Source: Algisphaera agarilytica (lineage in GTDB: Bacteria > Planctomycetota > Phycisphaerae > Phycisphaerales > Phycisphaeraceae). From it: DNA of 64,000 nucleotides. Numbering within the stretch: the first letter of the stretch is position 1; each line of letters starts with the position of its first letter. The notes under the pieces were generated by a model, which saw only the letters and a list, made by a program, of their open reading frames with translations, searched no databases and had not been told where the DNA came from. The stretch spans positions 2,424,836-2,488,835 of the forward strand of contig NZ_JACHGY010000001.1 of NCBI RefSeq assembly GCF_014207595.1, read 5' to 3'. This document shows, piece after piece, positions 1,105-24,034 of this stretch. The position numbers and the translations under genes were made by a program.

Positions 1105-2172
1105 TCAGGCGTGCTTGGCTTTCATCGCCTTGCCCGCCTGGGCGCTCTTGCCCGCGAGGTCGAGGATGTGGATCGGCCGACGCGCCCATTCGGGAGTGAT
1201 CACCAGGTCGGCCTGGCCGGTCATGTACTCGGCGATGTTTTTGTAGAACAGGTCGCCGCGGCTCTTGGGGTGCTTGCCCGAGGTCTCTTTGATCTGGTGC
1301 TTGCGGTTGGCCTTTTTCAGGATCCACTGCTGCGGGTCGTCTTGCCAACCGAAGTGGTTGATGATGTAGGTGCCCTTGGTGCCGTAGAAGGTCAGCGGGG
1401 GCCGGCGGACCGGGTCGAGCTGGGTGATGCACAGGTTGGCCACGCAGCCGTTGGCGAAGCGGACGACGGCGGTGGCTTCGTCTTCGTTCATGTCGCCGAT
1501 CCACGGGAAGTTCTTGGGGGCCTGGCTTTCCCAGTAGCCGTTCTTGGCATAGCCCGAGACCTCGACGATGTCCGAGTCGACGACCTGCAGGGTGTACTCG
1601 AGCAGGTGGCAGCCCCAGTCGTAGAGCACCCCGCCGGAGACGGACTTGCTGGTGCGCCACCAGTCGCGTGGCATGCCGTAGCCGCCGAAGTGGGCTTCGA
1701 CTTTGTACACGTCGCCGATGGTTTTCTTCTCGACGATCTCGCGGACCGCGCGCATGATCCAGCCGTCCCAGTGGCGGTTGTGGTAGGTGCTCACCATGAC
1801 GTTGTGTTTGTTGGCGAGGTTGATCAGGCGGTCCGCTTCGGAGGTGGTGACGACAAACGGCTTCTCGGTCACCACGTGCTTGCCCGCCTTCACGCACTTG
1901 GCCGCGAGGGGGTAGTGAAGGTTGTGCGGGGTGATGTGCACGAGCAGGTTCACGTCCGACTGCTTGAGCATCGCGTCGAGGCTGCCGTAGGTCTCGATGC
2001 CAGGGAAGTCGTCCTCGGCCACCTTCAGACGCTCGGGGTCGATCTCGCAGACGGCGAACGGGGTCATGCCCGCCTTCTTCATCTGCTGGAGGTGCTGCTG
2101 GCCCATGTTGAAGGCGCCGCCGTAGCCGACGACACCGACCTTGATGTCTTTGGTGGATTTGAACTTCTTCAT
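1105..2172 (-). CDS. Gfo/Idh/MocA family oxidoreductase (cytoplasmic type)
   Basis: A 355-residue NAD(P)-dependent dehydrogenase of the Gfo/Idh/MocA family, the usual length. The N-terminal Rossmann motif is VGVVGYGGAFNMG (about residues 13-25). The EKPFV motif (about residue 104) carries the family's conserved lysine, and the second half is the alpha/beta substrate domain. There is no signal peptide, unlike the two paralogues at 4115 and 5730, so it probably acts in the cytoplasm on a sugar or cyclitol derivative. It is divergent from the SDR gene at 2286 and ends in its own terminator. The substrate cannot be named from sequence. Confidence 0.88.
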   Translation of the reverse strand: MKKFKSTKDIKVGVVGYGGAFNMGQQHLQQMKKAGMTPFAVCEIDPERLKVAEDDFPGIETYGSLDAMLKQSDVNLLVHITPHNLHYPLAAKCVKAGKHVVTEKPFVVTTSEADRLINLANKHNVMVSTYHNRHWDGWIMRAVREIVEKKTIGDVYKVEAHFGGYGMPRDWWRTSKSVSGGVLYDWGCHLLEYTLQVVDSDIVEVSGYAKNGYWESQAPKNFPWIGDMNEDEATAVVRFANGCVANLCITQLDPVRRPPLTFYGTKGTYIINHFGWQDDPQQWILKKANRKHQIKETSGKHPKSRGDLFYKNIAEYMTGQADLVITPEWARRPIHILDLAGKSAQAGKAMKAKHA

Positions 2173-3964: not shown

Positions 3965-4114
3965 CCCCGGATCGCCACCCCTGCGGGTGCTTGGATCGTC
4001 CACCAAATCGGCAATATCGTGCTATCGGCGGGCGGGGTGGCCGCCTATATTGTTAGGGATTCGGCTTTCTGTATCAGCCGGTCTGATTCTCATCTCTCTC
4101 GGAGTGTCACCGTT

Positions 4115-5524
4115 TTGAAAACTACCCTGAACCGTCGGACCTTCCTCAAAGCCTCTGCCGCCACCGCGGTGGGAACCGGTGTGGTGCCCACGTTTTCGAT
4201 CGGCCAGCCGGGCCCCTCGCCCAACAGCAAGCTCAACATCGCCATGATCGGCGCGGGCAACATCGCCGCCATGGCCTACGGCCCGTGCAACCGTGAGAAC
4301 ATCGTCGCCCTGGCGGACACCGACGAGAACATGTTCCTCCAGCACGCCGAGAAGTTCCCCCAGCTCAACGACGCGAAAAAGTACAAAGACTTCCGCGTCA
4401 TGCTCGACGAGATGGACAGCGAGATTGACGCGGTCTGCATCAACACGCCCGACCACACCCACTTCGTCGCCACGATCGCCGCCATGGAACGCGGCAAGCA
4501 CGTCATCACCCAGAAGCCGCTGACCCACAACATCTGGGAAGCCCAGACGCTCAAGAAAGCTAAGGACAAGTACGGCGTCGTCACCAACATGGCGGTGCAG
4601 GGCCACACCTTCGACGGCATTCGTCAGATGCGCGAATGGTACGAAGCCGGCGTGCTCGGCGAAGTCACCGAAGCCCACAGCTGGATGAGCGGCCCGTGGT
4701 GGACCAAGCCCGGTGCCGAGAAGCCCAACCCCTATTGGCAGAAGCCCGAGGTCCTGCCCCCCGCGGCCATGGACGCCCCGGACAACCTCGACTGGGACCT
4801 GTGGCTCGGCCCCGTCGCGGCGGACGTTGCGTACAACAGCGTCTACCACCCCAAGACCTGGCGCGGCTACCACGCCTTCGGCAACGGCCTCATCGGCGAC
4901 TGGATGCCCCACATCTCCGACGCCCCGATCTCCATCCTCGATCTCTACGACCCCGTCTCGGTTGAACTCGAGGAAGTCGAAGGCGGCGACGACATCGTCG
5001 TGCCCAACGGCAACCGCGTCCGCTGGGACTTCGAACGCCGCGGCGACAAAGCGCCCTGTACCTTCTACTGGCACAACGGTGCACCCGGCAAGTTCGCTCC
5101 CGCGAAGCCCGAAGCTTGGACCTGGAGTGAAAAGTTGCCCAACGCCGGCTCGCTGTTCATCGGCGATAAATCCGTCGGCTACACCGACAACCGCTCCAAC
5201 AAGCCCCGCCTCGCCAACAAAGACGAAGCCCGCGCCTTCAAAGAAGCCGGCTACCCCGAAGAGGTCTACCCCCGCATCAAGGGCGGCCCGTTCGGCGAGT
5301 GGATCCGCGCGATCAAGGGCGACGGCCCCGAGCCCGGTGCCAACTTCGACTTCGCCGCTCCGTTCACCGTCACCCAACTCCTGGGCGCCCTGGCCATCCG
5401 CCACGGCGGCAAGATCGAATGGGACGGCGCGAAGGGCGAGATCACCAACCGCCCCGAACTCAACGCTTTTGTCAAGCCCCGCGTCCGACCCGGCTGGGAG
5501 TACGGCGAAGACCTCTGGACGTGA
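4115..5524 (+). CDS. Tat-exported Gfo/Idh/MocA family oxidoreductase, paralogue 1
   Basis: The frame is open from 4019, but the Tat signal [13 protein letters not shown] starts right after a TTG at 4115 with GGAG at 4101-4104, giving 469 residues. After the twin-arginine signal comes the Rossmann motif AMIGAGNIA, then NTPDHTHF and TQKPLTHN with the conserved Lys, then the C-terminal domain. Tat export means the protein is folded with its dinucleotide cofactor before translocation, as in glucose-fructose oxidoreductase. It is a close tandem paralogue of the gene at 5730: the first 200 residues after the signal are nearly the same. Likely role is periplasmic oxidation of a glycoside at C3; substrate not determined. 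Confidence 0.88.
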
Positions 5525-5729
5525 TCGGCCCGCGACGGATCGTTCCGATTAATTCCCTCGATATGCCCTCGGTGTCCTGAACATCACCGGCGAGCAAGGT
5601 CCCCAACCCACGCATGAAAGTGTCGTCGGTCGGGGATCCAACAAGCAATCGGTAAAAGTACTTTAACAGTCGGTTTTTCGTGTTTCGCTTTGCATGATTT
5701 CTGTGTTCGAATTGATGGAGTGCCCACGT

Positions 5730-7145
5730 ATGTCCCGTTCGATGAATCGCCGTACCTTCCTGAAAGCCACCGCCGCCACCGCCGCAGGGGCGGGTGCCAT
5801 CCCCAGCTTCTCAATCGGGCAACCCGGGCCCTCGGCCAATAGCAAGCTCAACATTGCCATGATTGGCGCCGGCAACATCGCGGGCATGGCGTATTGGGGC
5901 TGCAACAACGAAAACATCGTTGCCCTGGCGGACGTCGACGAGAACATGTTTCTGCAGAAGGCCGAGGAGTTTCCTCAGCTGGAAAAAGCACGCAAGTTCA
6001 AAGACTTCCGCGTGATGCTCGACGAGATGGAAAACGAGATCGATGCGGTGTGCATCAACACGCCCGACCACACCCACTTCGTCGCCACGATCGCCGCCAT
6101 GGAGCGCGGGATGCACGTCATCACGCAGAAGCCGCTGACCCACAACATCTGGGAAGCGCAGACGCTCCAGAAGGCCAAGCACAAGTACGGCGTCGTCACC
6201 AACATGGCGGTGCAGGGCCACACCTACGACGGCATCCGTCAGATGCGAGAGTGGTACGAGGCCGACGTCTTCGGTCAGATCACCGAGGTGCGTTCGTTCT
6301 TCGGCGGCCCGGGTTGGCGCGAGTTCGATGGCGACCCCAACAACAACCACTACTTCATGCGCCCGGATGTCTTGCCCCCGGTGGAGCAGCCGGTCCCGTC
6401 GCACCTCGATTGGGATTTGTGGAAGGGCCCGTCGACCACCGACCTGCCTTACCACGGCGTATACCACCCCAAGGGCTGGCGCGGCTACTACCCCTTCGGC
6501 AACGGCCTGATCGGCGACTGGCTGGCGCACGTGTCTGATGCCCCGGTCTGGATCCTCGACCTCTACGACCCCGTCTCGGTCGAGCTCGAGATGGTACTCA
6601 ACGGCAGCGACGTCATCGTGCCCGACGCCAACGTGGTCCGCTGGGACTTCGAACGCCGCGGCGACAAGGCCCCCTGCACGTTCTACTGGCACAATGGCTG
6701 GGGCAAGTACATGCCCGACAAGCCCGAGGAATGGACCTGGGGTGAGCCGGACGAAAAGATGCCGGCCGGGACCCTCTACTTCGGTGAGAAACAGATCGGC
6801 TTCACCGACAACCGTTCGAACAAACCTCGCCTAGCCAACCAAGAAGCGATGCGCGAGTTCAAAGCGGCCGGCTACCCCGAAGAGGTCTACCCCCGCGTCA
6901 AGGGCGGCCCGTTTGCCGAGTGGCTCCGCGCGATCAAGGGCGAAGGCCCCGAGCCCGGTGCGAACTTCGACTTTGCCTCGCCGTTCACGGTGATGGCCCT
7001 GCTCGGCGCACTGGTCATGCGGCACGGCGGCAAGATCGACTGGGACGCCAAGACCGGCCAGATCACCAACCGCCCCGAACTCAACGCCTTCGTCAAGCCC
7101 GAGGTCCGCCCGGGCTGGGAGTACGGCGAAGTCCTGTGGGTCTGA
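5730..7145 (+). CDS. Tat-exported Gfo/Idh/MocA family oxidoreductase, paralogue 2
   Basis: 471 residues from ATG 5730, preceded by GGAG (5717-5720). The Tat signal is [13 protein letters not shown], and the Rossmann motif [19 protein letters not shown] and TQKPLTHN match paralogue 1. The two genes diverge most around residues 195-240 ([10 protein letters not shown] here, [10 protein letters not shown] in the other), a region likely to line the substrate pocket, which suggests duplication followed by substrate divergence. About 200 bp separate the two genes, so each may have its own promoter. It precedes the DUF1080 lipoprotein gene. Confidence 0.88.
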
Positions 7146-8167: not shown

Positions 8168-8401
8168 ATGGCGGAAGTCGAAGAAGATGACTGTGAGCGA
8201 TGCGGCCGCCATGCCTCGGGCAAGCGGCGCTGGATGTTCTACAGGCCTCTTGAACGCTTTCCCCAGCCGCCGATGGTGCGGCAGTTCTTCTGCGACCGCT
8301 GCTTGAGACTCATGTGGGTCTATGCCGTGATCGGATTCGGTCTGGTGTGGCTCTTGGTGGGTTCGCTCGTGGGTGTCACGATCTGGCTGACGCAGTTTTA
8401 A
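8168..8401 (+). CDS. Small CxxC zinc-ribbon-like membrane protein
   Basis: 77 residues from ATG 8168, which follows GGAAGGA (8154-8160) at 7 nt; the frame is open from 8135 but that start has no Shine-Dalgarno. Two CxxC pairs (CERCG near residue 9 and CDRC near residue 43) probably bind one zinc. The C-terminus (about residues 50-75) is a single hydrophobic helix. No enzyme family recognised. Codon use is GC-rich like the housekeeping genes, unlike the next gene. Confidence 0.6.
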   Translation: MAEVEEDDCERCGRHASGKRRWMFYRPLERFPQPPMVRQFFCDRCLRLMWVYAVIGFGLVWLLVGSLVGVTIWLTQF

Positions 8402-8420
8402 TAAACCTTGCTTTCTTGTG

Positions 8421-8498
8421 TTTAAGATGCGACGCGAACCGTCCCGCGCGTGGTAATCTCAACTGATCCAGTTCCGGGATATTCTGCCTCAGCTACTC
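8421..8498 (+). repeat. Composite intergenic repeat, decayed copy
   Basis: Aligns along its length with the block at 9000-9077: a GACGCG..CGTCCCGCG hairpin, GTGGTAA-CTCAA, then TTCCGGG..TTCTGCC. Several substitutions show it is older. It lies directly upstream of the AT-rich lipoprotein gene at 8519. Confidence 0.65.
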
Positions 8499-8518
8499 TT
8501 GTAAATAAAACGCTTGGT

Positions 8519-8893
8519 ATGGTAAATAAACAGATATTTCAATTGATGATTGCTTTATGCTTCTTGATTCCATCATGTGGAGATGGGGGCCAGCCAGGCA
8601 ATACGTATTCGGTTCAAGGCCGTTATGTGGGGAACTATTCAAATGGTCAAGAAGTAATCGTGCTGAATCAGGATAATACGTTTACACAGACGTTCTCACG
8701 CAATGGGGTGACGCAACATTCATTAGACGGGACATGGGAGTTGCGTAATGAATCGATTGTTTTTAGCCCTTTTATAGTAGTCGATAGTTCACCTCCAAAA
8801 CAGTATGGTCATGTGGAAGGGAGCCTTCACAAAAAAGGCGAAGTGATTTCTTTTAATCCAGATACAGACTATTTTATTAGAAAATCTCCGTGA
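8519..8893 (+). CDS. Hypothetical small lipoprotein, AT-rich
   Basis: 124 residues from ATG 8519. The frame is open from 8450, but that part runs through a repeat. The signal peptide MVNKQIFQLMIALCFLIPSC ends in a lipobox-like IPSC, and the mature part is short and beta-rich (YVGNYSNGQEVIVL, TFTQTFSR, DGTWELRNESIVF), like a small lipocalin-type or META-like barrel. No family recognised. The gene is clearly AT-richer than its surroundings and sits between two direct copies of an intergenic repeat, which suggests acquisition. Confidence 0.55.
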   Translation: MVNKQIFQLMIALCFLIPSCGDGGQPGNTYSVQGRYVGNYSNGQEVIVLNQDNTFTQTFSRNGVTQHSLDGTWELRNESIVFSPFIVVDSSPPKQYGHVEGSLHKKGEVISFNPDTDYFIRKSP

Positions 8894-8950
8894 ATTTTGT
8901 ATCTATCTTAATGAGGGGGCACGGTGTTTGTAGTACATGACGGTTTATTA

Positions 8951-8987
8951 GTTGCCGTAACTCAGGCAAGCATGCCTGACCTACGGG
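8951..8987. repeat. Intergenic palindrome, copy 2
   Basis: Imperfect copy of the CAGGCATGCCTGACCTAC palindrome with a short insertion in the left arm. Copies 1 and 3 are at 8103 and 10193. Confidence 0.75.
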
Positions 8988-8999
8988 ATGCAGGATTTC

Positions 9000-9077
9000 G
9001 TTTAGCGGGCGACGCGGAGCGTCCCGCGTGGTAACCTCAAACCGACTTATTCCGGGGCATTATGCCCCGGCCACCCC
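9000..9077 (+). repeat. Composite intergenic repeat, intact copy
   Basis: Two hairpins in series: a TAGCGGGCGACGCGG/CGTCCCGCG stem, then GTGGTAACCTCAA, then TTCCGGGGCATTATGCCCCGG. The first half recurs at 43203-43236. The second half matches the ends of the long inverted element at 30893 and 31982. Confidence 0.75.
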
Positions 9078-9100
9078 ACACCCGATGGGAAGGAGCCGTG

Positions 9101-9463
9101 ATGATCAAGTTTGTGATGATTTGCTACCGCAAGCCCGGCACGACGCGGGCCGAGTTTCAGGACTACTGGCTGAACCAGCACGCCCCGTTGTTCGGCAAGT
9201 TCGCCGATGTGTTCGGGACCAAGCGTTACGTGCAGTGCCACACGCTGGACTCGCCGATGAACGACGCGATCCGCGCATCACGCGGCATGGCCGGGGCCTG
9301 CGACGGCGTCGCCGAGGTGTGGTTCGAATCCGAAGAACAACTTATGGCCGCGATGAGTTCCCCCGAAGGCCAGGAGGTCGGGGCGACCCTCACCGCCGAC
9401 GAAAACAACTTTATTGACCACGCCCGCTCCAGCGCGTTCATCGCGGTGGAGCATGAGTTGTGA
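9101..9463 (+). CDS. EthD domain protein
   Basis: 120 residues from ATG 9101, preceded by GGAAGGAG. The sequence opens MIKFVMICYRKPGTT and continues EFQDYWLNQHAPLF, the typical EthD (PF07110) dimeric alpha/beta-barrel opening with its conserved W..HAP. A second conserved stretch is EVWFESEEQLMAAMSSPEG. EthD proteins are small ferredoxin-like dimers, some needed for ether degradation, most of unknown substrate. It is GC-rich like the core genome and stands alone between repeats. Confidence 0.8.
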   Translation: MIKFVMICYRKPGTTRAEFQDYWLNQHAPLFGKFADVFGTKRYVQCHTLDSPMNDAIRASRGMAGACDGVAEVWFESEEQLMAAMSSPEGQEVGATLTADENNFIDHARSSAFIAVEHEL

Positions 9464-9555
9464 AATTGAACTAGGTAGTGCATTTTAGTAGCGAATATTC
9501 TCAAACGTTGGTCTGGATAGATGAGTTGGCCATTATTGATTGAACGTGCTGTGTA

Positions 9556-10098
9556 ATGAAGCGGAAAATATTCATCGTCTTCTCGTTTCCCTTATTGATC
9601 CTGCTTGTCTTGCTCGTATGGAATTTTGACGACATTCAAAGAGCATATCTGATTAGCGGCGACATCAATTTTTACGGAAAAATAATTGACGAAAGTGGTA
9701 AGCCAATTGTTGGGCATCAAGTGGAGTTCTCGATTTCGGAACCTAATTTTTTCTGGCACTGGATTGGTTACAGGAAAGCCCGACGTCGTATGGAATATGC
9801 CGAGACAGATGCAAAAGGTCTGTTTGCGCTTGAAGGCGAGCGAGGGATATGGATGGACGTTACGATTCGAAATACAGAAACACTCATTTTTAATCCTGAA
9901 TCCATCGATCGAGTGAAAAAATACCCTGAGCAATTTAGAGAGAAGTATTTTAACGAGGTTATAAATGATGGCGGTGTGAGTAATAACTTCAACTTTAGTG
10001 GTTTCTCCGAAGCGCCCAAAGCCGGTTCGGGATCGAGTCCAGGTGAGCCGCTGATTTATACCGGGTACTTTTTGGAGAATATTGATCCGAGGCGTTAA
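9556..10098 (+). CDS. Hypothetical exported protein with carboxypeptidase-regulatory-like fold, AT-rich
   Basis: 180 residues. Residues 1-24 form a hydrophobic signal or anchor (MKRKIFIVFSFPLLILLVLL). From about residue 36 the pattern INFYGKIIDESGKPIVGHQVEFSI is typical of a carboxypeptidase-regulatory-like Ig-type domain, followed by the ETDAKGLFALEGERG turn these domains share. No catalytic motif seen. Strongly AT-rich against its neighbours, so probably acquired. Function unknown. Confidence 0.6.
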   Translation: MKRKIFIVFSFPLLILLVLLVWNFDDIQRAYLISGDINFYGKIIDESGKPIVGHQVEFSISEPNFFWHWIGYRKARRRMEYAETDAKGLFALEGERGIWMDVTIRNTETLIFNPESIDRVKKYPEQFREKYFNEVINDGGVSNNFNFSGFSEAPKAGSGSSPGEPLIYTGYFLENIDPRR

Positions 10099-10192
10099 AT
10101 CGCCTGTGCAGGCACTTTATTCGAAGTGTGAAGAGGGCGCGGGCCAACTACATTAGTATCAGATCAATCGCGATTGTTTTATAGCGCAGGAT

Positions 10193-10216
10193 GTAGGTCA
10201 GGCATGCCTGACCTAC
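10193..10216. repeat. Intergenic palindrome, copy 3 (perfect)
   Basis: A perfect 24-bp palindrome with 12-bp arms (GTAGGTCAGGCA and its complement). Related to copies at 8103 and 8951, all within 2.1 kb. Confidence 0.85.
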
Positions 10217-10245
10217 TGAGCCGATTTACGTTAGGTGGTAAAGCT

Positions 10246-10536
10246 GTGGTGTTTACGTGTATCACCGAATCCAATGGTATATTTCATCTAAGTCAACATA
10301 CCTCCTCAACACCGGATGCAGCGTTGCGTGAACATGTTGCTGTCTTGCCAGTGGATGATGGCGTGGATCCCTTTGATGCGGAATTGGATTGGCTGCTCAA
10401 AGTGAGCGATGGGGCGACTGAGTTAGAATTAATTCCTGTTTCCGATTGTCCCGGTACATGGCTCTGGATAGACGGAGCGCGTCACCAACCACAATACAGC
10501 ACCTACATCGTCCGCACGGATGTACGGGTCACCTAA
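10246..10536 (+). CDS. Hypothetical protein
   Basis: About 96 residues if started at GTG 10246, 7 nt after AGGTGG. The frame is open from 10174, but that extension would translate the palindromic repeat, so I exclude it. The product (VVFTCITESNGIFH...) is acidic with no signal peptide, membrane helix or known motif. Short acidic orphans of this kind are often immunity-like or decayed genes; nothing here decides which. Coding status itself is uncertain. Confidence 0.4.
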   Translation: MVFTCITESNGIFHLSQHTSSTPDAALREHVAVLPVDDGVDPFDAELDWLLKVSDGATELELIPVSDCPGTWLWIDGARHQPQYSTYIVRTDVRVT

Positions 10537-10614
10537 CCACTGGCTGGCAGTTGACCGGCGACGCCTGCGAGGGCTGCTCATAGGTGTGGCTAGACTACAT
10601 CGCCATGGGATAGC

Positions 10615-10740
10615 TCAAGCTGTTTTCAGTGTGCTAGGATCAAGCGCATACCCGCACTCATCCGCGAGTTCTTTGAACTCGGCGATCTCGGCTTCAGTGA
10701 AGAGCAGGCCGCCGGCCTTTTCGCTTTCGAGCGAGGCGTG
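10615..10740 (-). pseudogene. 3' fragment of an Ldh-family dehydrogenase gene
   Basis: Encodes the last ~40 residues of a dehydrogenase like that at 12555-13664: ASLESEKAGGLLFTEAEI and onward to a TGA at 10615. Over 10652-10738 it differs from 12592-12678 at 4 of 87 positions by my count; beyond that the tail has diverged (DPSTLKTA against DPKILKNA). No start codon or catalytic region remains. It lies just beyond the GH9 stop codon, on the same strand. Confidence 0.8.
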
Positions 10741-10772
10741 TTCTAAAGCGACCAGAGTCTTCGTGCGGCGTG

Positions 10773-12515
10773 CTACTCGGAGCGATACGCTTCCAGCCGC
10801 GCGAGTGCCGCGAGGTAGGGGAGGCTGTGGGCGATGTAGGCTTCGTCGTCGAAATGGATGGGCAGGTCGGTGGCGGGGGTGATCGGCTTGATCTTGAACT
10901 GGCGGCTTGCGGAGAAGCCGTTGCAGACCGAGCCGGGGATCTTGGTCCAGCTGCCGCGTGAGCGTTGGCCGACGCCGTAGACCATGCTGACGGGGAGGTA
11001 GGCCGCGGGGCCTTCGCCTTCGCCGCCGCCTTCGAGCTTGCCCACGTTCAGGCCCGCGATCCATTGCACGTTGGCCACGGCGATCTCGCGGAACTGCGGG
11101 TCGTCGAACAACTCGCCGAGTTCGAGAGCCAGGGAAGCGGTGAAGGCGTAAATGTTGTTGTGGCCGTGGTACCAACTCCCGAAATGCACCAGGCTGTGCT
11201 CGCGGTCGACCCCGGCGGGGAGGATGAGGAACGGACTGCTTCGGCAGGCGGGCAAGAGGTAGCCGTGGGCGAATCGGTGGAGGGTCTGTTTCCACCGCTC
11301 GGCATCGGGGTGGTCGGGCCACTCCCGGGTCATGTCGATCAGCGGCAGCAGGTAGTGGGGGTAGTGGCCGCCTTTGTTGTACAGCCGGCCTTCCTTGCTC
11401 CACGCCCCGCAGTGGATGTTGGCTTTCTCGGTGAAGCGGATGCCGTCGAATGAGTCGAAGTGGTCGTAGGTGTAGAAGTGGCCGAAGTACCCGTGCTCGG
11501 CTTCATCTTCGGGGACCTGACGTTGCATGAGCAGGTCGGCGTACGCCACGGCGCGGTCTTGGTAGTCGGCTTCTCCCGCACGGCACAACTCGAACGCGGC
11601 CCGGGTCATGGTGACCAGGTCACGCGTCATCCACTGCCCATCGGGAGGGGCCGAGCCTTTGGGCGCTCCGTGGACGGCGGCGAAAAAGTCTTGTTCGCCC
11701 ACCGGGTCGACCGGGCCGTGGTCTTCGAGCCAGTCAAACGCGAGTTTGGCGCGTTCGAGGTACTCGGCGCTCTTCTCGGGGTTATGGGTTTGGATCAGCC
11801 GTGACACGCGGGCGAACACCGCGGCGGCTTTGGCGATGTTGCCGGTGACGACGTCGCGGTCCCGGTCTTCGTGGATGACCACGCCGCGCCCCAACCCCTC
11901 GACCTCGGCCTTGTCTTGCAGGCGGGCCATGTAGTCGCAGCCGCGGATGAGTTGGTCTTGGAGGAAGACGAGTTGATCTTCCGGCCCCTTGTGAGCGATC
12001 AGTTTGATCACATCAGCGATGCCGTCGACGCAGACCGCGTGGCTGCTGAACTCTTGCAGGTCGCTGCCACAGTCGCGCCAGCCCACGCCGGTGCGGGCCT
12101 GCTGCGAACGGGTCTTGAGGTAGTCCGACCCGATGACGGGGTAGCTGGCTTCCCAGAGCAGTTGTTCGCCGATGTCGATCGGATTGCTTTCGGCGATCAC
12201 TTCGTCGCCATCGTGAATGTGTAGGGTGTATCGGCCCGGAGTAAGCACCGACGAGAAATCCGCCTCCCACCAATGCGCGGCCCACCGCTCGCCGTGCGCG
12301 ACGAGTTGGCCTTGGTGTGCAAGGTCCGATGAATCGTCGTGAAGTGTAAAGGTCGCTTCGGTAGACAGGCGGTCCGGTTGATCGGAGCGGACCATCGCGA
12401 CTTTATTGTCGGACTGGTCGTAGCCGATCTGGGAAGACATCACCCAGACCTCAGCGGTCAGAGTTGGAGATGTCATGAGCGATACCAGAGCCAGGCAGAT
12501 AGTGATCCAGCGCAT
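10773..12515 (-). CDS. Glycoside hydrolase family 9-like protein, secreted
   Basis: 580 residues with a signal peptide (MRWITICLALVSLMTSPTLTA). Residues ~22-120 match the Ig-like N-terminal cellulase domain (VMSSQIGYDQSDNKVAMV). From ~140 comes an alpha/alpha-barrel in which the GH9 nucleophile region reads GWRDCGSD instead of the usual YDAGD. The C-terminal motif is DDEAYIAHSLPYLAALARL, where GH9 enzymes carry the acid Glu. Such enzymes hydrolyse beta-glucans or related glycans; the altered motif makes the substrate uncertain. It lies 39 bp downstream of the dehydrogenase gene and is probably co-transcribed. Confidence 0.78.
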   Translation of the reverse strand: MRWITICLALVSLMTSPTLTAEVWVMSSQIGYDQSDNKVAMVRSDQPDRLSTEATFTLHDDSSDLAHQGQLVAHGERWAAHWWEADFSSVLTPGRYTLHIHDGDEVIAESNPIDIGEQLLWEASYPVIGSDYLKTRSQQARTGVGWRDCGSDLQEFSSHAVCVDGIADVIKLIAHKGPEDQLVFLQDQLIRGCDYMARLQDKAEVEGLGRGVVIHEDRDRDVVTGNIAKAAAVFARVSRLIQTHNPEKSAEYLERAKLAFDWLEDHGPVDPVGEQDFFAAVHGAPKGSAPPDGQWMTRDLVTMTRAAFELCRAGEADYQDRAVAYADLLMQRQVPEDEAEHGYFGHFYTYDHFDSFDGIRFTEKANIHCGAWSKEGRLYNKGGHYPHYLLPLIDMTREWPDHPDAERWKQTLHRFAHGYLLPACRSSPFLILPAGVDREHSLVHFGSWYHGHNNIYAFTASLALELGELFDDPQFREIAVANVQWIAGLNVGKLEGGGEGEGPAAYLPVSMVYGVGQRSRGSWTKIPGSVCNGFSASRQFKIKPITPATDLPIHFDDEAYIAHSLPYLAALARLEAYRSE

Positions 12516-12536
12516 AAGTGGATCGCATTTATAGCA

Positions 12537-12553
12537 AAACGCGATCCGCGTTT
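12537..12553 (-). terminator. Weak hairpin between dehydrogenase and GH9 genes
   Basis: AAACGCG / CGCGTTT arms with a 3-nt loop and only a short T run on the minus strand. It could attenuate readthrough between the two genes. Confidence 0.35.
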
Positions 12554-12554
12554 A

Positions 12555-13664
12555 CTAGGCGTTTTTTAGTATTTTCGGGTCGAAATCGTGACCGCACTCG
12601 TCGGCGAGTTCTTTGAACTCGGCGATCTCGGCTTCGGTGAAGAGCAGGCCGCCGGCCTTTTCGCTTTCGAGTGAGGCGCGGTATTCGAGTTCGCCGGGGA
12701 GGATGGTGCCGTTGTCGACGTTGCCGTGGCCGACGACATCTTCGATGACGGCCTTGACGTTGGCGGCCTGGTCACGGCCGCAGGCGAACGCTCCGCCGCT
12801 GACCGCATCCGGGTGGATGACCTGGAAGTAGAACGACGGGGTGGTCTTTTCGCCTTCGGTCCCCGCGGGGATGTCTTCGGGGCGTGAGCGGAGGGTGGGG
12901 AGGCTGCCGCCGATGAAGCCGCCGACGAGTTCGTTGATGAGCGACAGGCCGTAGCCCTTGTGTCGGCCGAAGGGCTGGAGGGCGTGGACCTGGTTGGGGT
13001 CTTGCGTGGGGTTGCCGTCCTTGTCGACCGCGGAGTCGGGGGGCAGGGTGAGCCCTTCACGTTTAAATTGTTGGACGCGTCCCATGGCGACGGTGGAGGT
13101 GGCCCAGTCGATGACGATGGGGTAGCCGATGGCGTCTTGGGTGGGGAAGCCCCAGGAGTGGGGGTTGGTGCCGAGGGTGGGGTGCTTGCCCATGAAGGGG
13201 ACGACTTCGGCGAGGGCGGCGGTGCAGTTGGTGTAGGCGATGTAGCCGCGTTTGGCCGAATCCATGACGTAGCCGCCGCCCCAGAGGTAATGGAAGGCGT
13301 AGTCGACGGACACGATGCCGACGCCGTACTGGTCGGCCATCTTCTCGGCGGCCTCGATGGCTTCAAAAGCCACGGCCTGGCCGAGCTTGCGGTTGGCGTT
13401 CCACTGCTCGGCGGCGGCAAACCTGCTGGGGAGCTTTTCGATCTCCGCGCCGGGCACGCAGCCGGGGTTGGTCTCGTTGCCGCTGCCGAAGAGGTGGTCG
13501 AGGTGCAGGGCCTTGAGGGCGTTGTGCGTCTTGATGCCGTACCACGCGGTGAGCTGGCTGAAGCGGGCGGCCTGCTGGGCCTCGTCGGCGGTGTAGCCGC
13601 GGTGCTGGTAGGCGGCGGCGACGAGGGCGTTGTGAGATTCGATAGGGAAGATCAGATTCGACAT
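12555..13664 (-). CDS. Malate/L-lactate dehydrogenase family (Ldh_2) oxidoreductase
   Basis: 369 residues, full length for the Ldh_2 family (malate, L-lactate, ureidoglycolate and 2,3-diketogulonate dehydrogenases), which uses an NAD(P) fold unrelated to classical LDH. Typical segments are seen: AFEAIEAAEKMADQYGVGIVSV near residue 100, PFMGKHPTLGTNPHSWGFPT near 160, and GRHKGYGLSLINELVGGFIGG near 230, the conserved His-Lys-Gly-Tyr loop. The last 40 residues are duplicated at 10615-10740. It may act on a 2-oxo or 2-hydroxy acid from sugar acid catabolism; substrate not determinable. Confidence 0.88.
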   Translation of the reverse strand: MSNLIFPIESHNALVAAAYQHRGYTADEAQQAARFSQLTAWYGIKTHNALKALHLDHLFGSGNETNPGCVPGAEIEKLPSRFAAAEQWNANRKLGQAVAFEAIEAAEKMADQYGVGIVSVDYAFHYLWGGGYVMDSAKRGYIAYTNCTAALAEVVPFMGKHPTLGTNPHSWGFPTQDAIGYPIVIDWATSTVAMGRVQQFKREGLTLPPDSAVDKDGNPTQDPNQVHALQPFGRHKGYGLSLINELVGGFIGGSLPTLRSRPEDIPAGTEGEKTTPSFYFQVIHPDAVSGGAFACGRDQAANVKAVIEDVVGHGNVDNGTILPGELEYRASLESEKAGGLLFTEAEIAEFKELADECGHDFDPKILKNA

Positions 13665-14482: not shown

Positions 14483-15538
14483 TTATCCCGCTTCGGGGTT
14501 CGCGTGGCGGTCGACCATCTGGCTCAGCGCTTTCCAACCCTCTAACTCTTGGGCGGTCAGCGAGGCCCGGCCCTGGGTCTTCAGCCGGTGTTCCACGGCC
14601 CGCAGCCATCGGCGTTTCTCGCGGGGTAGGTTCACCCGGTCGTTGACCACCAGCCCAGTGACGCGTTGCTGCTGGTGTCGTCTGACGACGCGGAGCTTGC
14701 CGCGGGTGTGGACGGTGTAGCCGTGGCGTTTGGCGGTGCGGCGGACGTGTTGGATCGTGCCGCGGACGTACTTCGGCCAGTCCTCGGGGTAGCTGACGGT
14801 GATGTCGTCGGCGTAGCGGGTGTAGGTGCCGTGGTGCGCCTCGACGTAGCGCAAGATCTGGGCGTCCATCACGTGGTTGATCAGGTTGCTCAGGCGCGGG
14901 CTGGTCGGGGCACCCTGGGGGAGCCCGCCTTCGTGGGTGCAGAGTTCGGTGAGCAGGGCGGCGGACTCGGCGTCCCAGCCGATGCGGCGGAAGTAGTGCT
15001 CGACACGCTCGGCCGTGGTGTTCGGGAAGAAGTCCTTGAGGTCGAGCTTGATCACCACCGCCTGCCCGGCGTGGAACGCGGCGTTGTGCGCGATCGACAC
15101 GCCCGGCTCAAACCCGGTCGCGCACCAATGCACCTGGAGCTTGCGGAGCAGCCTGCGGTGGATCAGCCGTTGCAGGTGTTTGAGCTCGGGGTTGGGCGCG
15201 TGGAGCACGCGTGTGCCGCCGCGTTTCTTGGCGGTGGTGAAGCGGTGGTACCTGCGGTTGGCGGTTTGCAGTTTCTGCGCGGAAGTATCCAGACGCCGGG
15301 CGAGTTCGGCGAGGTCTTTGCCCCTACCCAGCCGGGTGCGACGGCGGTCTGTGCGGTGCGTTTCGTGGGGCTTGGGCAGCAGCGCGAGGCGTTGCAGCCA
15401 CAGCACGATCGCGACGCAGATCACGACGACCGTCAGCACCGCGAAGATGATTGCGAAGAGCCACAAAAAGCCTTTCGCCGGGTTACCGGGGATCGGCCCG
15501 CCTTGCTCAGCATGGGCAAAGACGTGTCTTTGCATCAT
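14483..15538 (-). CDS. Retron-type reverse transcriptase with N-terminal membrane helix
   Basis: 351 residues. Residues ~23-48 are one strongly hydrophobic helix. The RT domain runs from ~105 to 300: KLDLKDFF (catalytic D166), LPQGAPTSP (206-214) and RYADD (catalytic D244 and D245), so all three metal ligands are present. Retron marks also occur: an NAxxH motif (NAAFH, 152-156) and a VTG triplet (293-295). There is no maturase, endonuclease or integrase domain, so a group II intron origin is unlikely. The 120 nt upstream hold several hairpins and could be an msr-msd, though I could not define one. No effector gene is adjacent. It may be a defence retron or a conserved planctomycete RT. Confidence 0.85.
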   Translation of the reverse strand: MMQRHVFAHAEQGGPIPGNPAKGFLWLFAIIFAVLTVVVICVAIVLWLQRLALLPKPHETHRTDRRRTRLGRGKDLAELARRLDTSAQKLQTANRRYHRFTTAKKRGGTRVLHAPNPELKHLQRLIHRRLLRKLQVHWCATGFEPGVSIAHNAAFHAGQAVVIKLDLKDFFPNTTAERVEHYFRRIGWDAESAALLTELCTHEGGLPQGAPTSPRLSNLINHVMDAQILRYVEAHHGTYTRYADDITVSYPEDWPKYVRGTIQHVRRTAKRHGYTVHTRGKLRVVRRHQQQRVTGLVVNDRVNLPREKRRWLRAVEHRLKTQGRASLTAQELEGWKALSQMVDRHANPEAG

Positions 15539-21144: not shown

Positions 21145-22692
21145 TTACGCCTTGAGCTGCGGGCGATCGGGCTCGGGCCAATCGACGTGGAACTTCTGGC
21201 CGCGGGGCTTGTCGACGCGCTCGTAGGTGTGGGCGCCGAAGTAGTCACGCTGGGCTTGCAGCAGGTTGGCCGGGACGACCGCCGAGCGGTAGCCGTCGAA
21301 GTAGGCCAGCGCCGAGCTGAAGGCCGGGGTCGGCACGCCGTTGAGCACGGCCAGGCTGACGACCTTCCGCCAGTTCTCCTGGCAGCGGTGCAGTTCCTTC
21401 TTGAAGAACGGGTCGAGCATGAGGTTTTGCAGCTTCGGGTCCTTGGCGTAGGCCTCGGTGATCTTCTGCAGGAAGCGGGCGCGGATGATGCAGCCGCCGC
21501 GGAAGATCTTGGCGATCTCGCCAAAGTTCAGCTTCCAGCCGTACTCGTTTTGCGCTTCGGCCATGAGCTGGAAGCCCTGGGCGTAGGCGCAGATCTTCGA
21601 GCTGTAGAGGGCGTCGTGGATCGCTTCGATGAGGGCCTTCTTGCCGCGGACGGGCTTGGTGTTCTTGGGGCCCTTGAGCTTCTTGGACGCGGCGACGCGC
21701 TCTTCCTTGATGGCACTGAGGCAGCGGGCGAACACGGCCTCGGCGATCGCGTTGGCGGGGATGCCCATGTCCAGGGCGCTGGTGCTGGTCCACTTACCGG
21801 TACCCTTTTGGCCGGCCGCATCGAGGACGATGTCGACGAACCACTTGCGCTTGTTGGTCGGGTCTTTCTGCTGGAGGATGTCGGTGGTGATTTCGATCAG
21901 GAAGCTGTCGAGCAGGCCTTCGTTCCACTGGCCGAACACTTTGGACATCTCGTCGGGCTTCATGCCCAGGAGGTCCTTCATGAGCTGATAGGCTTCGCAG
22001 ATCAGCTGCATGTCGATGTATTCGATGCCGTTGTGGACCATCTTGACGTAGTGGCCCGCGCCGTCGGCGCCGATGTGGGTGGTGCAGGTCTCACCTTCGG
22101 TGATCGGCACGCCCTTCTTGTAGTCTTCGTAGGGCTTGCCGGTCTTGGGGTCGACCTTGGCGGCGATGGCTTCCCAGATGGGCTTGAGCGACTTCCAGGC
22201 TTTCTTCGAGCCGCCGGGCATGAGCGAAGGCCCGAAGCGTGCGCCGAGCTCACCGCCGGAGACGCCCGAGCCGATGAACTCGTAGCCGGCCTTGGTCAGC
22301 TCTTCTTCACGGCGGATGGTGGCGTTCCAGTTGGAGTTGCCGCCGTCGATGATGATGTCGCCCTTATCGATCAGGGGAAGCAGCCCGGCGATGGTCGCGT
22401 CCACCGCGTCGCGGTCGTGGGGCAGCACGGCGGTCGACTGCACGAGCAGCACTATCTTGCGGGGCTTGGCGATGGACTTGACGAAGTCCTTGAGCTCGGC
22501 GAAGCCGACGACGCGCTCGGCCGAGGGCTCGTTTTCTTCGCAGTCCTTGATGAAGGCTTCCATCTTGGAGGTGGTGCGGTTGTAGACGCTGACCTTGTAG
22601 CCGTGGTCGGCCATGTTCAGGACGAGGTTCTGGCCCATGACGGCCAGGCCGATGAGGCCGATGTCGGATTGGTTGGATTTCTTCTTAGCCAT
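21145..22692 (-). CDS. gnd: 6-phosphogluconate dehydrogenase, decarboxylating
   Basis: 515 residues. The N-terminal NADP-binding motif [21 protein letters not shown] starts near residue 12, followed by NRTTSK. The catalytic region [21 protein letters not shown] with SGGE and the KMVHNGIEY motif are intact, and the helical C-terminal domain is full length. It oxidises 6-phosphogluconate to ribulose 5-phosphate and CO2 in the pentose phosphate pathway, in the cytoplasm. It is slightly longer than the usual ~470-480 residues. Its promoter lies next to a long hairpin repeat at 22725. Confidence 0.95.
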
Positions 22693-22846: not shown

Positions 22847-23821
22847 TTAGAACTTGTTGGCCTGGATAAAGTCGTCATTTCCAGACAAGAAGTTTACAAG
22901 ATTCAGCGTCGCCCGCATGGCCTGCCGGCCGACGGACTCCAGGGTCCGGCTGCCGATGTGGGGGGTCAGCATGATGTTGTCGACGCCCTGGTAGGGGTGG
23001 GGCGTCTGCATCGGCTCGACGTTGACCACGTCCGTGCCGTAGCCGCCGAGCTTGCCCGCTTTGCAGGCCTCGGCGATGTCCGATTCGTTGACCAGGCCGC
23101 CGCGGGCGGTGTTGATCAGGATGGCGGTGTCTTTCATCTGCTCGATCAGGGCGGTGTTGATGAACCCGCGGTTTTCTTCAGTCAGGTTCATGTGGAGGCT
23201 GATCACGTCGGCGGTGGTGAGGACTTCCTCGGCCGAGTCGCATTTCTTGACGCCGTACTCGTTGGCGAAATCTTCGTCCCAATACAGGTCGTAGGCCATC
23301 GCGGGCATGCCGAAGGCGGCGCCGCGTTTGATGACTTCCTTGCCGATCCGGCCCATGCCGATGATGCCCAGGGTCTTGCCCGCCAGTTCGCTGCCGGTCT
23401 GACGTTTCCAGTTGCCCGCCTCGACCTCGCGGAGGTGCATCTTGAAGTGTTTGGACAGGCCGATCATCAGGCCGAAGGCGTGCTCGGCGACGGTGGTGTG
23501 GTTCACGCCGGGGGTGAAGAGCACGGGGATCTTCTTTTCGGTGGCGTGGGGGACGTTGATCGAGTCGAGCCCGATGCCGTATTTGGCGATGACCTTGAGC
23601 GGGGTGGGGGCGGCGAGCGCGGCGTCGATGACGTTGGCGGTGATCTCGTCGTCGCCGTTGAGCAGGCCGTCGAAGCCGCCGTGCTTCTCGACGAGTTCGA
23701 GCATCTCGGCCTCGTGGAGCGGGCCGCGGGCACGGACGATCTCGAAGCCCGAGGATTCGAGCTTGGCGTGGTGATCGCCGGGGGTGTCCTGATAGCTGGT
23801 GGTGGTGAGGAGGATTCGCAT
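22847..23821 (-). CDS. D-isomer specific 2-hydroxyacid dehydrogenase (phosphoglycerate dehydrogenase-like)
   Basis: 324 residues from ATG 23821; the frame opens further up at 23890, but MRILLTTTSY is a natural N-terminus. The NAD motif GKTLGIIGMGRIGKEV is near residue 145. The catalytic Arg (NTARGG), Glu region (NVEP) and His (LTPHIGS) follow in order. Such enzymes reduce 2-oxo acids or oxidise D-2-hydroxyacids. The absence of a C-terminal ACT or ASB domain shows it is the short form, so a serA role is possible but not certain. It may share a role with serC at 44360 in serine synthesis. Confidence 0.87.
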   Translation of the reverse strand: MRILLTTTSYQDTPGDHHAKLESSGFEIVRARGPLHEAEMLELVEKHGGFDGLLNGDDEITANVIDAALAAPTPLKVIAKYGIGLDSINVPHATEKKIPVLFTPGVNHTTVAEHAFGLMIGLSKHFKMHLREVEAGNWKRQTGSELAGKTLGIIGMGRIGKEVIKRGAAFGMPAMAYDLYWDEDFANEYGVKKCDSAEEVLTTADVISLHMNLTEENRGFINTALIEQMKDTAILINTARGGLVNESDIAEACKAGKLGGYGTDVVNVEPMQTPHPYQGVDNIMLTPHIGSRTLESVGRQAMRATLNLVNFLSGNDDFIQANKF

Positions 23822-24034
23822 GGCAGGCCTTTCGTCAGGGAGCGTCGTGTCGGGCATTCGAGCCGGACGGGTCCGCTCGTTGATGCGCACGTCCCTCCAG
23901 ACACCTGCCTCTGAGCGATTCCTGAGATGAAGCGGAAAACGCGGGGAATCAGAGGGGGCCGACGACCTCCGTGCGGGAGATAGAGCCCAAGAAAATACGC
24001 CCGGAGCCCGCCAGCGTCAAAATCGGGGGCAAGG

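Follow-up and report, generated by a model that had tools for sequence, protein, structure and literature searches.

The window analysed here, a 64,000-nucleotide stretch of the Algisphaera agarilytica genome (assembly GCF_014207595.1, contig NZ_JACHGY010000001.1, positions 2,424,836 to 2,488,835), carries on its minus strand a glycoside hydrolase gene enclosed between an intact dehydrogenase gene and a second, orphan dehydrogenase 3′ end. The intact gene (12555–13664, 369 amino acids) encodes a dehydrogenase of the malate/L-lactate type belonging to the Ldh_2 family (PF02615; Pfam score 193 bits). The glycoside hydrolase gene (10773–12515, minus strand, 580 amino acids) combines the domains CelD_N and Glyco_hydro_9 and is referred to below as the GH9 gene; it starts 39 bp behind the dehydrogenase stop. 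The orphan end lies 35 bp behind the GH9 stop, in the same orientation as the intact gene and the GH9 gene, and the 35-nt spacer between GH9 and orphan (10738–10772), which aligns only loosely to the dehydrogenase, is where the presumed illegitimate junction would lie.

A repeat search of the window paired positions 10623–10738 with 12563–12678 (116 nt, 85% identical, spacing 1940). Within this pair, 10652–10738 and 12592–12678 differ at 4 of 87 bp, exactly as the first-pass annotation of this DNA had recorded. The same annotation described the orphan as a copy of the last 40 codons of the dehydrogenase; the 40 codons and the stop do correspond without a gap (rear 10615–10737, front 12555–12677, minus strand), but the orphan is not a plain copy. 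It is a mosaic, in which a near-identical core is joined to a diverged end. Codon by codon, the first 24 codons (10666–10737 in the orphan and 12606–12677 in the front copy, with 2 differences in 72 nt) differ at 2 of 24 third positions, and the last 17, stop included (10615–10665 and 12555–12605), at 13 of 17. Among the 40 residues, none of the first 29 differs and 6 of the last 11 do, the orphan ending in YALDPSTLKTA and the intact gene in HDFDPKILKNA. The best break in divergence within the fragment has a permutation p of 0.00025; the same test applied to the intact gene and its counterpart in a congener detects no break (p = 0.82). All 4 changes in the 87 bp are synonymous (5 if codon 29 is counted), an outcome with a probability of 0.00035–0.0056 under random substitution, the value varying with the assumed count and bias. 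If the congener serves as outgroup, the 4 changes are assigned to the fragment, a weak polarisation because codon ends recur.

When the organism's own genome (4.17 Mb) was searched with a 161-nt query around the fragment, the query recovered itself and the copy within the dehydrogenase (87 nt, 95%, E = 4.8e-34), which rules out a chance repeat. A third match was set aside as weak (74%, E = 3e-4); it falls in a gene that we take, by eye and without a search, to be S-adenosylhomocysteinase (ahcY). No further copy of the dehydrogenase end was found in the 4.17 Mb, giving two copies in total. The fragment also forms part of a 262-residue open reading frame (ORF; 10615–11403), which was dismissed because its frame overlaps GH9. 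The prospect that the fragment might belong to an unrelated conserved gene, raised earlier as grounds for abandoning the duplication or insertion reading, did not materialise; it matches the dehydrogenase end.

Turning to the diverged part, the two alternative C-termini were compared with those of 26 family genomes, namely those of the 27 other matched genomes whose contig holds the gene end. The mean BLOSUM fit to this set is 14.0 for the orphan versus 6.8 for the intact gene, and the orphan end fits better in 22 of the 26 relatives and worse in 4, the relatives not being independent of one another. Both ends outscore their own shuffles (orphan, p = 0.0002; intact gene, p = 0.0014). Neutral decay was simulated by making 15 random changes in 33 nt of the intact end; of 20,000 stop-free outcomes, 4 scored as high as the orphan. 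Since a decaying copy of the neighbouring gene should score lower rather than higher, the fragment most plausibly derives from the end of another dehydrogenase allele or paralogue, one that was probably functional for most of its divergence; the evidence for this origin is statistical and comes from a short stretch.

Across the family, a dehydrogenase match at E ≤ 1e-30 is present in 28 of 51 genomes, own included, and none of the 51 holds two full genes of this kind at the same threshold. The two hits in genome G042 cover different parts of the query and lie on two contigs, and more distant Ldh_2 paralogues (28–34% identity) exist in some genomes. Of the two informative states for which the first-pass annotation had proposed looking among relatives, a locus with two full dehydrogenase genes did not appear, and a locus with none did. 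On the minus strand of the window the order is 2-hydroxyacid dehydrogenase (22847–23890), 6-phosphogluconate dehydrogenase (6PGD; 21145–22692), further genes, Ldh_2, GH9 and the orphan end, and gene-order comparison marks the first two as conserved upstream neighbours. In the congener G002, the 2-hydroxyacid dehydrogenase (81%), 6PGD (87%) and a Gfo/Idh gene (70%) stand in a row with neither Ldh nor GH9 among them. A Gfo/Idh/MocA gene of the window (1105–2172, minus strand) has a homologue directly behind the dehydrogenase in G017 and 0.94 kb on in G056. Two loci are uninserted: in G017 the dehydrogenase is followed 69 bp on by Gfo/Idh (split in two frames), and in G024 it is followed 111 bp on by a gene for a 94-residue protein (94-aa gene); both come from genomes as far removed as other genera and not from strains. 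Locus forms without GH9 and without a second tail exist.

The congener G001, a metagenome-assembled genome that is 78% complete, carries a dehydrogenase 78% identical in amino acids to that of the window, in the order CobN, Ldh, a broken GH9, the 94-aa gene, RmuC and NusG. No orphan end lies behind its dehydrogenase–GH9 pair, and CobN was not found in approximately 83 kb of the window's genome (the window plus locus L177). In G002, the 94-aa gene, RmuC and NusG sit on another contig. A wider search for second tails covered 109 dehydrogenase loci, representing 99 distinct sequences with the window's own, within the stretches fetched; three of the genes are partial (L046–L048), 81 of the 99 sequences have at least 2 kb downstream (80 of the 98 others) and 68 have at least 5 kb. 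Within these stretches, no second tail was found beside any of the 98 other sequences, and the window alone has one. Matches in seven loci (L055, L062, L098, L104, L105, L107 and L123) were short and 32–72% identical, with E-values of 7e-5 to 0.007, and were judged to be due to chance.

The Pfam scores of the GH9 gene are 28.9 bits for Glyco_hydro_9 (cut-off 27.7) and 38.3 for CelD_N (cut-off 24.6), which suggests a divergent, GH9-like enzyme, and a phmmer search of the protein against PDB sequences gave no match at 0.001. At E ≤ 1e-10 the gene is matched in 3 of the 51 family genomes, and among 400 genomes of the order a search at E ≤ 1e-20 gave the same 3, own included: these are the window's genome, G001, and G056, which has a distant copy (39%) elsewhere in its genome. 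Weak matches were also seen in G010 and G027 (27–38% identity, E about 1e-4 to 1e-5). The gene is not private to the window's genome, as G001 has a broken orthologue in the same order, in which an internal TAG and frame changes occur and parts are missing, mainly around residues 261–456. This orthologue is a decaying pseudogene (L032, 6255–7176, on contig C69); the dehydrogenase before it has an open frame.

From these sequence comparisons we consider it reasonably probable that the orphan 3′ end comes from another dehydrogenase allele and was displaced when DNA carrying the GH9 gene recombined into the 3′ end of the dehydrogenase. In the incoming DNA, the GH9 gene would have stood behind a dehydrogenase 3′ end, and a crossover with the resident dehydrogenase would have taken place inside the conserved stretch encoding the C-terminal region. 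Such an exchange would keep the reading frame and supply the intact gene with its new last 17 or so codons, with GH9 behind them, while the end of the other allele would be left 1.94 kb downstream, adjoining the old flank; the near-identical core would then represent the tract around the crossover. The DNA may have entered by a single crossover, as a circle that bore part of the gene, or it may have recombined homologously at one end and been joined illegitimately at the other. The direction of transfer, the identity of the native end and the precise route of recombination are what we infer. With a one-ended homologous insertion, a single event accounts for most of the features. The first-pass annotation had left duplication with deletion and insertion side by side; the break in divergence, the family-like orphan end and the uninserted relatives favour insertion.

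Several observations weigh against this account. The first 24 codons, taken alone, hold only 2 differences, too few to show selection. The intact end is not abnormal: besides beating its own shuffles, it scores 6.8, inside the range that a leave-one-out comparison gives for the family (−0.6 to 17.9). The end of the G001 gene is only slightly nearer to the intact end than to the orphan, differing from them at 7 and 10, respectively, of 12 third positions and at 6 and 7 residues. Moreover, G001 keeps the dehydrogenase–GH9 order without the tail, so that either the tail was lost there or the tail and GH9 arrived in different events. A crossover tract, or gene conversion at a later time, has to be assumed for the near-identical core; none of the relatives fetched has a downstream flank that matches the DNA behind the orphan end, and the available relatives include no donor and no close strain lacking GH9. 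Finally, true homology-facilitated illegitimate recombination usually leaves a deletion and, in a test in E. coli, fitted only 4 of 60 clones (PMC3240628), and for this reason a single crossover is the better precedent.

Alternative histories must account for the same mosaic. A tandem duplication long ago, of the dehydrogenase alone or together with GH9, is on the unlikely side: the second gene would have diverged while functional and been deleted down to its last 40 codons, with gene conversion keeping part of it alike. Two diverged, functional-looking ends are also what two old paralogues would leave, and tandem repeats are prone to conversion. This history, which corresponds to the duplication with deletion proposed earlier plus a later conversion, needs three steps, and the 28 matched genomes among the 51 of the family contain no pair of full genes, although closer relatives could still differ. 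In addition, the sequence behind the orphan stop resembles neither the Ldh–GH9 intergenic region nor the start of GH9, contrary to what a duplicated block would give. A recent short copy of the neighbour's last codons, produced by template switching or slippage and now decaying neutrally, would suit the small size of the fragment, its adjacency and its absence elsewhere in the genome; we regard it as very improbable in view of the sharp change in divergence inside the copy, the purely synonymous differences in its conserved part and an orphan end that is closer to the family's C-termini than the sequence it would have been copied from.

A site-specific integrative element could have used the dehydrogenase 3′ end as its attachment site, resupplied the gene end and brought GH9 as cargo, its integrase having since been lost. 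The anatomy is that of e14 in icd, with a new end on the intact gene, the old end on the far side and mostly synonymous exchanges (PMC11148124). However, GH9 fills almost the whole stretch from one end to the other, no integrase or transposase was recognised by Pfam among the 16 ORFs scanned between the dehydrogenase and the 94-aa gene (small ORFs were not all scanned), and the absence of a second tail at the other dehydrogenase loci examined speaks against recurrent use of the site; an element of this kind is therefore improbable. Least probable of all, the fragment may have been kept for a function of its own, for instance as a translated peptide or as an RNA or DNA element behind GH9. Its intact frame and stop would agree with this, as would a 7-bp inverted repeat around AAA in the core (read from the sequence), yet the spacer between the fragment and the GH9 stop offers no in-frame ATG, GTG or TTG, and further back the open frame overlaps GH9 in a different frame. 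The inverted repeat lies within codons and is not conserved in the G001 dehydrogenase, and the fragment has no Pfam match.

The region behind the dehydrogenase varies strongly. The 94-aa gene lies downstream of Ldh in 7 of the 22 loci compared for gene order, at distances of 0.1 kb in G024, 1.2 in G001, 2.8 in G007, 3.3 in G060, 7.5 in G016, 8.6 in G009 and 18 kb in the window's genome. The interval between the two genes, ranging from 0.1 to 18 kb across seven family genomes, is a place of gene gain in this family. In the window's genome the 94-aa gene lies outside the window (L177, 12751–13035), and it is found downstream together with RmuC and NusG, about 16–22 kb from the orphan end. This interval holds GH9, the orphan end, an A+T-rich patch, sugar-related genes, Gfo/Idh and others. 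We offer only as a long shot the broader proposal that the dehydrogenase 3′ end is a natural landing site, at which a small cassette made up of a replacement gene end and one carbohydrate gene may insert without a recombinase of its own, the region behind the gene being a family-wide place of gene gain where arrivals can leave orphan ends.

The A+T-rich patch (8300–10600), identified from the composition profile, lies directly behind the orphan end and is mostly 41–55% GC, versus about 64% around it. It has no blastn match in 101 fetched loci of relatives, and its one weak tblastx match (L132) falls within an EthD-domain gene of normal GC content (9062–9463, plus strand) that interrupts the patch. 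The ORF at 10174–10536 was found in 1 of the 51 family genomes, its own. A palindrome of 24 bases resembling repetitive extragenic palindromes (REPs) at 10193–10216 has 22 sites in the own genome at up to 3 mismatches, and most of the patch's 49 own-genome matches (the patch itself counted) come from short dispersed repeats, likewise REP-like, at 8962–8990, 8996–9032 and 9047–9076. A causal link of the REP-like palindromes to the orphan end was considered and set aside, there being no causal evidence for it.

Other genes in the surroundings include a reverse transcriptase gene beside the dehydrogenase (14483–15538, minus strand), which matches defence and retron reverse transcriptase models in PADLOC (best RT_XIII, 253 bits) and has a homologue (64–67%) in the same neighbourhood of G056. 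Two adjoining Gfo/Idh/MocA genes with twin-arginine translocation (TAT) signals (4019–5524 and 5694–7145, plus strand) look like tandem paralogues, and a 3-keto-disaccharide hydrolase gene comes after the pair.

Taken as a whole, the locus is most likely the scar of recombination between two versions of the dehydrogenase, of an ordinary kind known from other bacteria and in this instance well preserved. Such a scar lets one read how, in a planctomycete genus, a conserved metabolic gene acquired a carbohydrate-degrading gene behind it. It also illustrates that when the end of a gene is repeated over a short length, the repeat may belong to another allele and need not be a plain copy. Nothing fundamental changes with it; it serves as an example of how recombination within a conserved gene can add a gene. 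Among the papers listed in literature searches on homology-facilitated illegitimate recombination and on Algisphaera, no title or abstract opening concerns this locus, and an account in print may still exist.

Related arrangements are known from three systems, of which one is the insertion of the prophage e14, an element that uses an attachment site. In E. coli K-12 MG1655, e14 interrupts icd behind codon 362, and a 165-bp duplicate, icdC, remains, with 12 exchanges, two of which change residues (PMC11148124). As in that case, a dehydrogenase gene here would have been given a new 3′ end by an insertion while the other end survives on the far side (PMC11148124). At the present locus, by contrast, GH9 is the only gene inserted and no integrase was found, and the divergence of the two ends in their last 17 codons is much greater. 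In a conjugation test in E. coli, 56 of 60 clones gave a polymerase chain reaction product diagnostic of a partial duplication of the gene end, and 14 sequenced clones carried duplications of 109–950 bp; the authors explain these by single crossovers with circular molecules from which part of the homologous segment was missing (PMC3240628). The likeness lies in an insertion at the 3′ part of a gene with a duplicated remnant, of 109–950 bp there and 123 bp here (PMC3240628); the difference is that the test used a laboratory plasmid with homology cloned from the same gene, whereas diverged alleles and an inferred event are concerned here. The third system comprises the type VI secretion system (T6SS) effectors of Vibrio cholerae, in which a new module shifts the 3′ end of an older gene downstream, by a mechanism that the authors propose to be akin to homology-facilitated illegitimate recombination (PMC5361080). 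Whereas that system concerns effector–immunity modules and repeated events in many strains, and the present locus is a single case of a metabolic dehydrogenase and a glycosidase, in both a module anchored by a conserved part would have pushed an older 3′ end downstream (PMC5361080).

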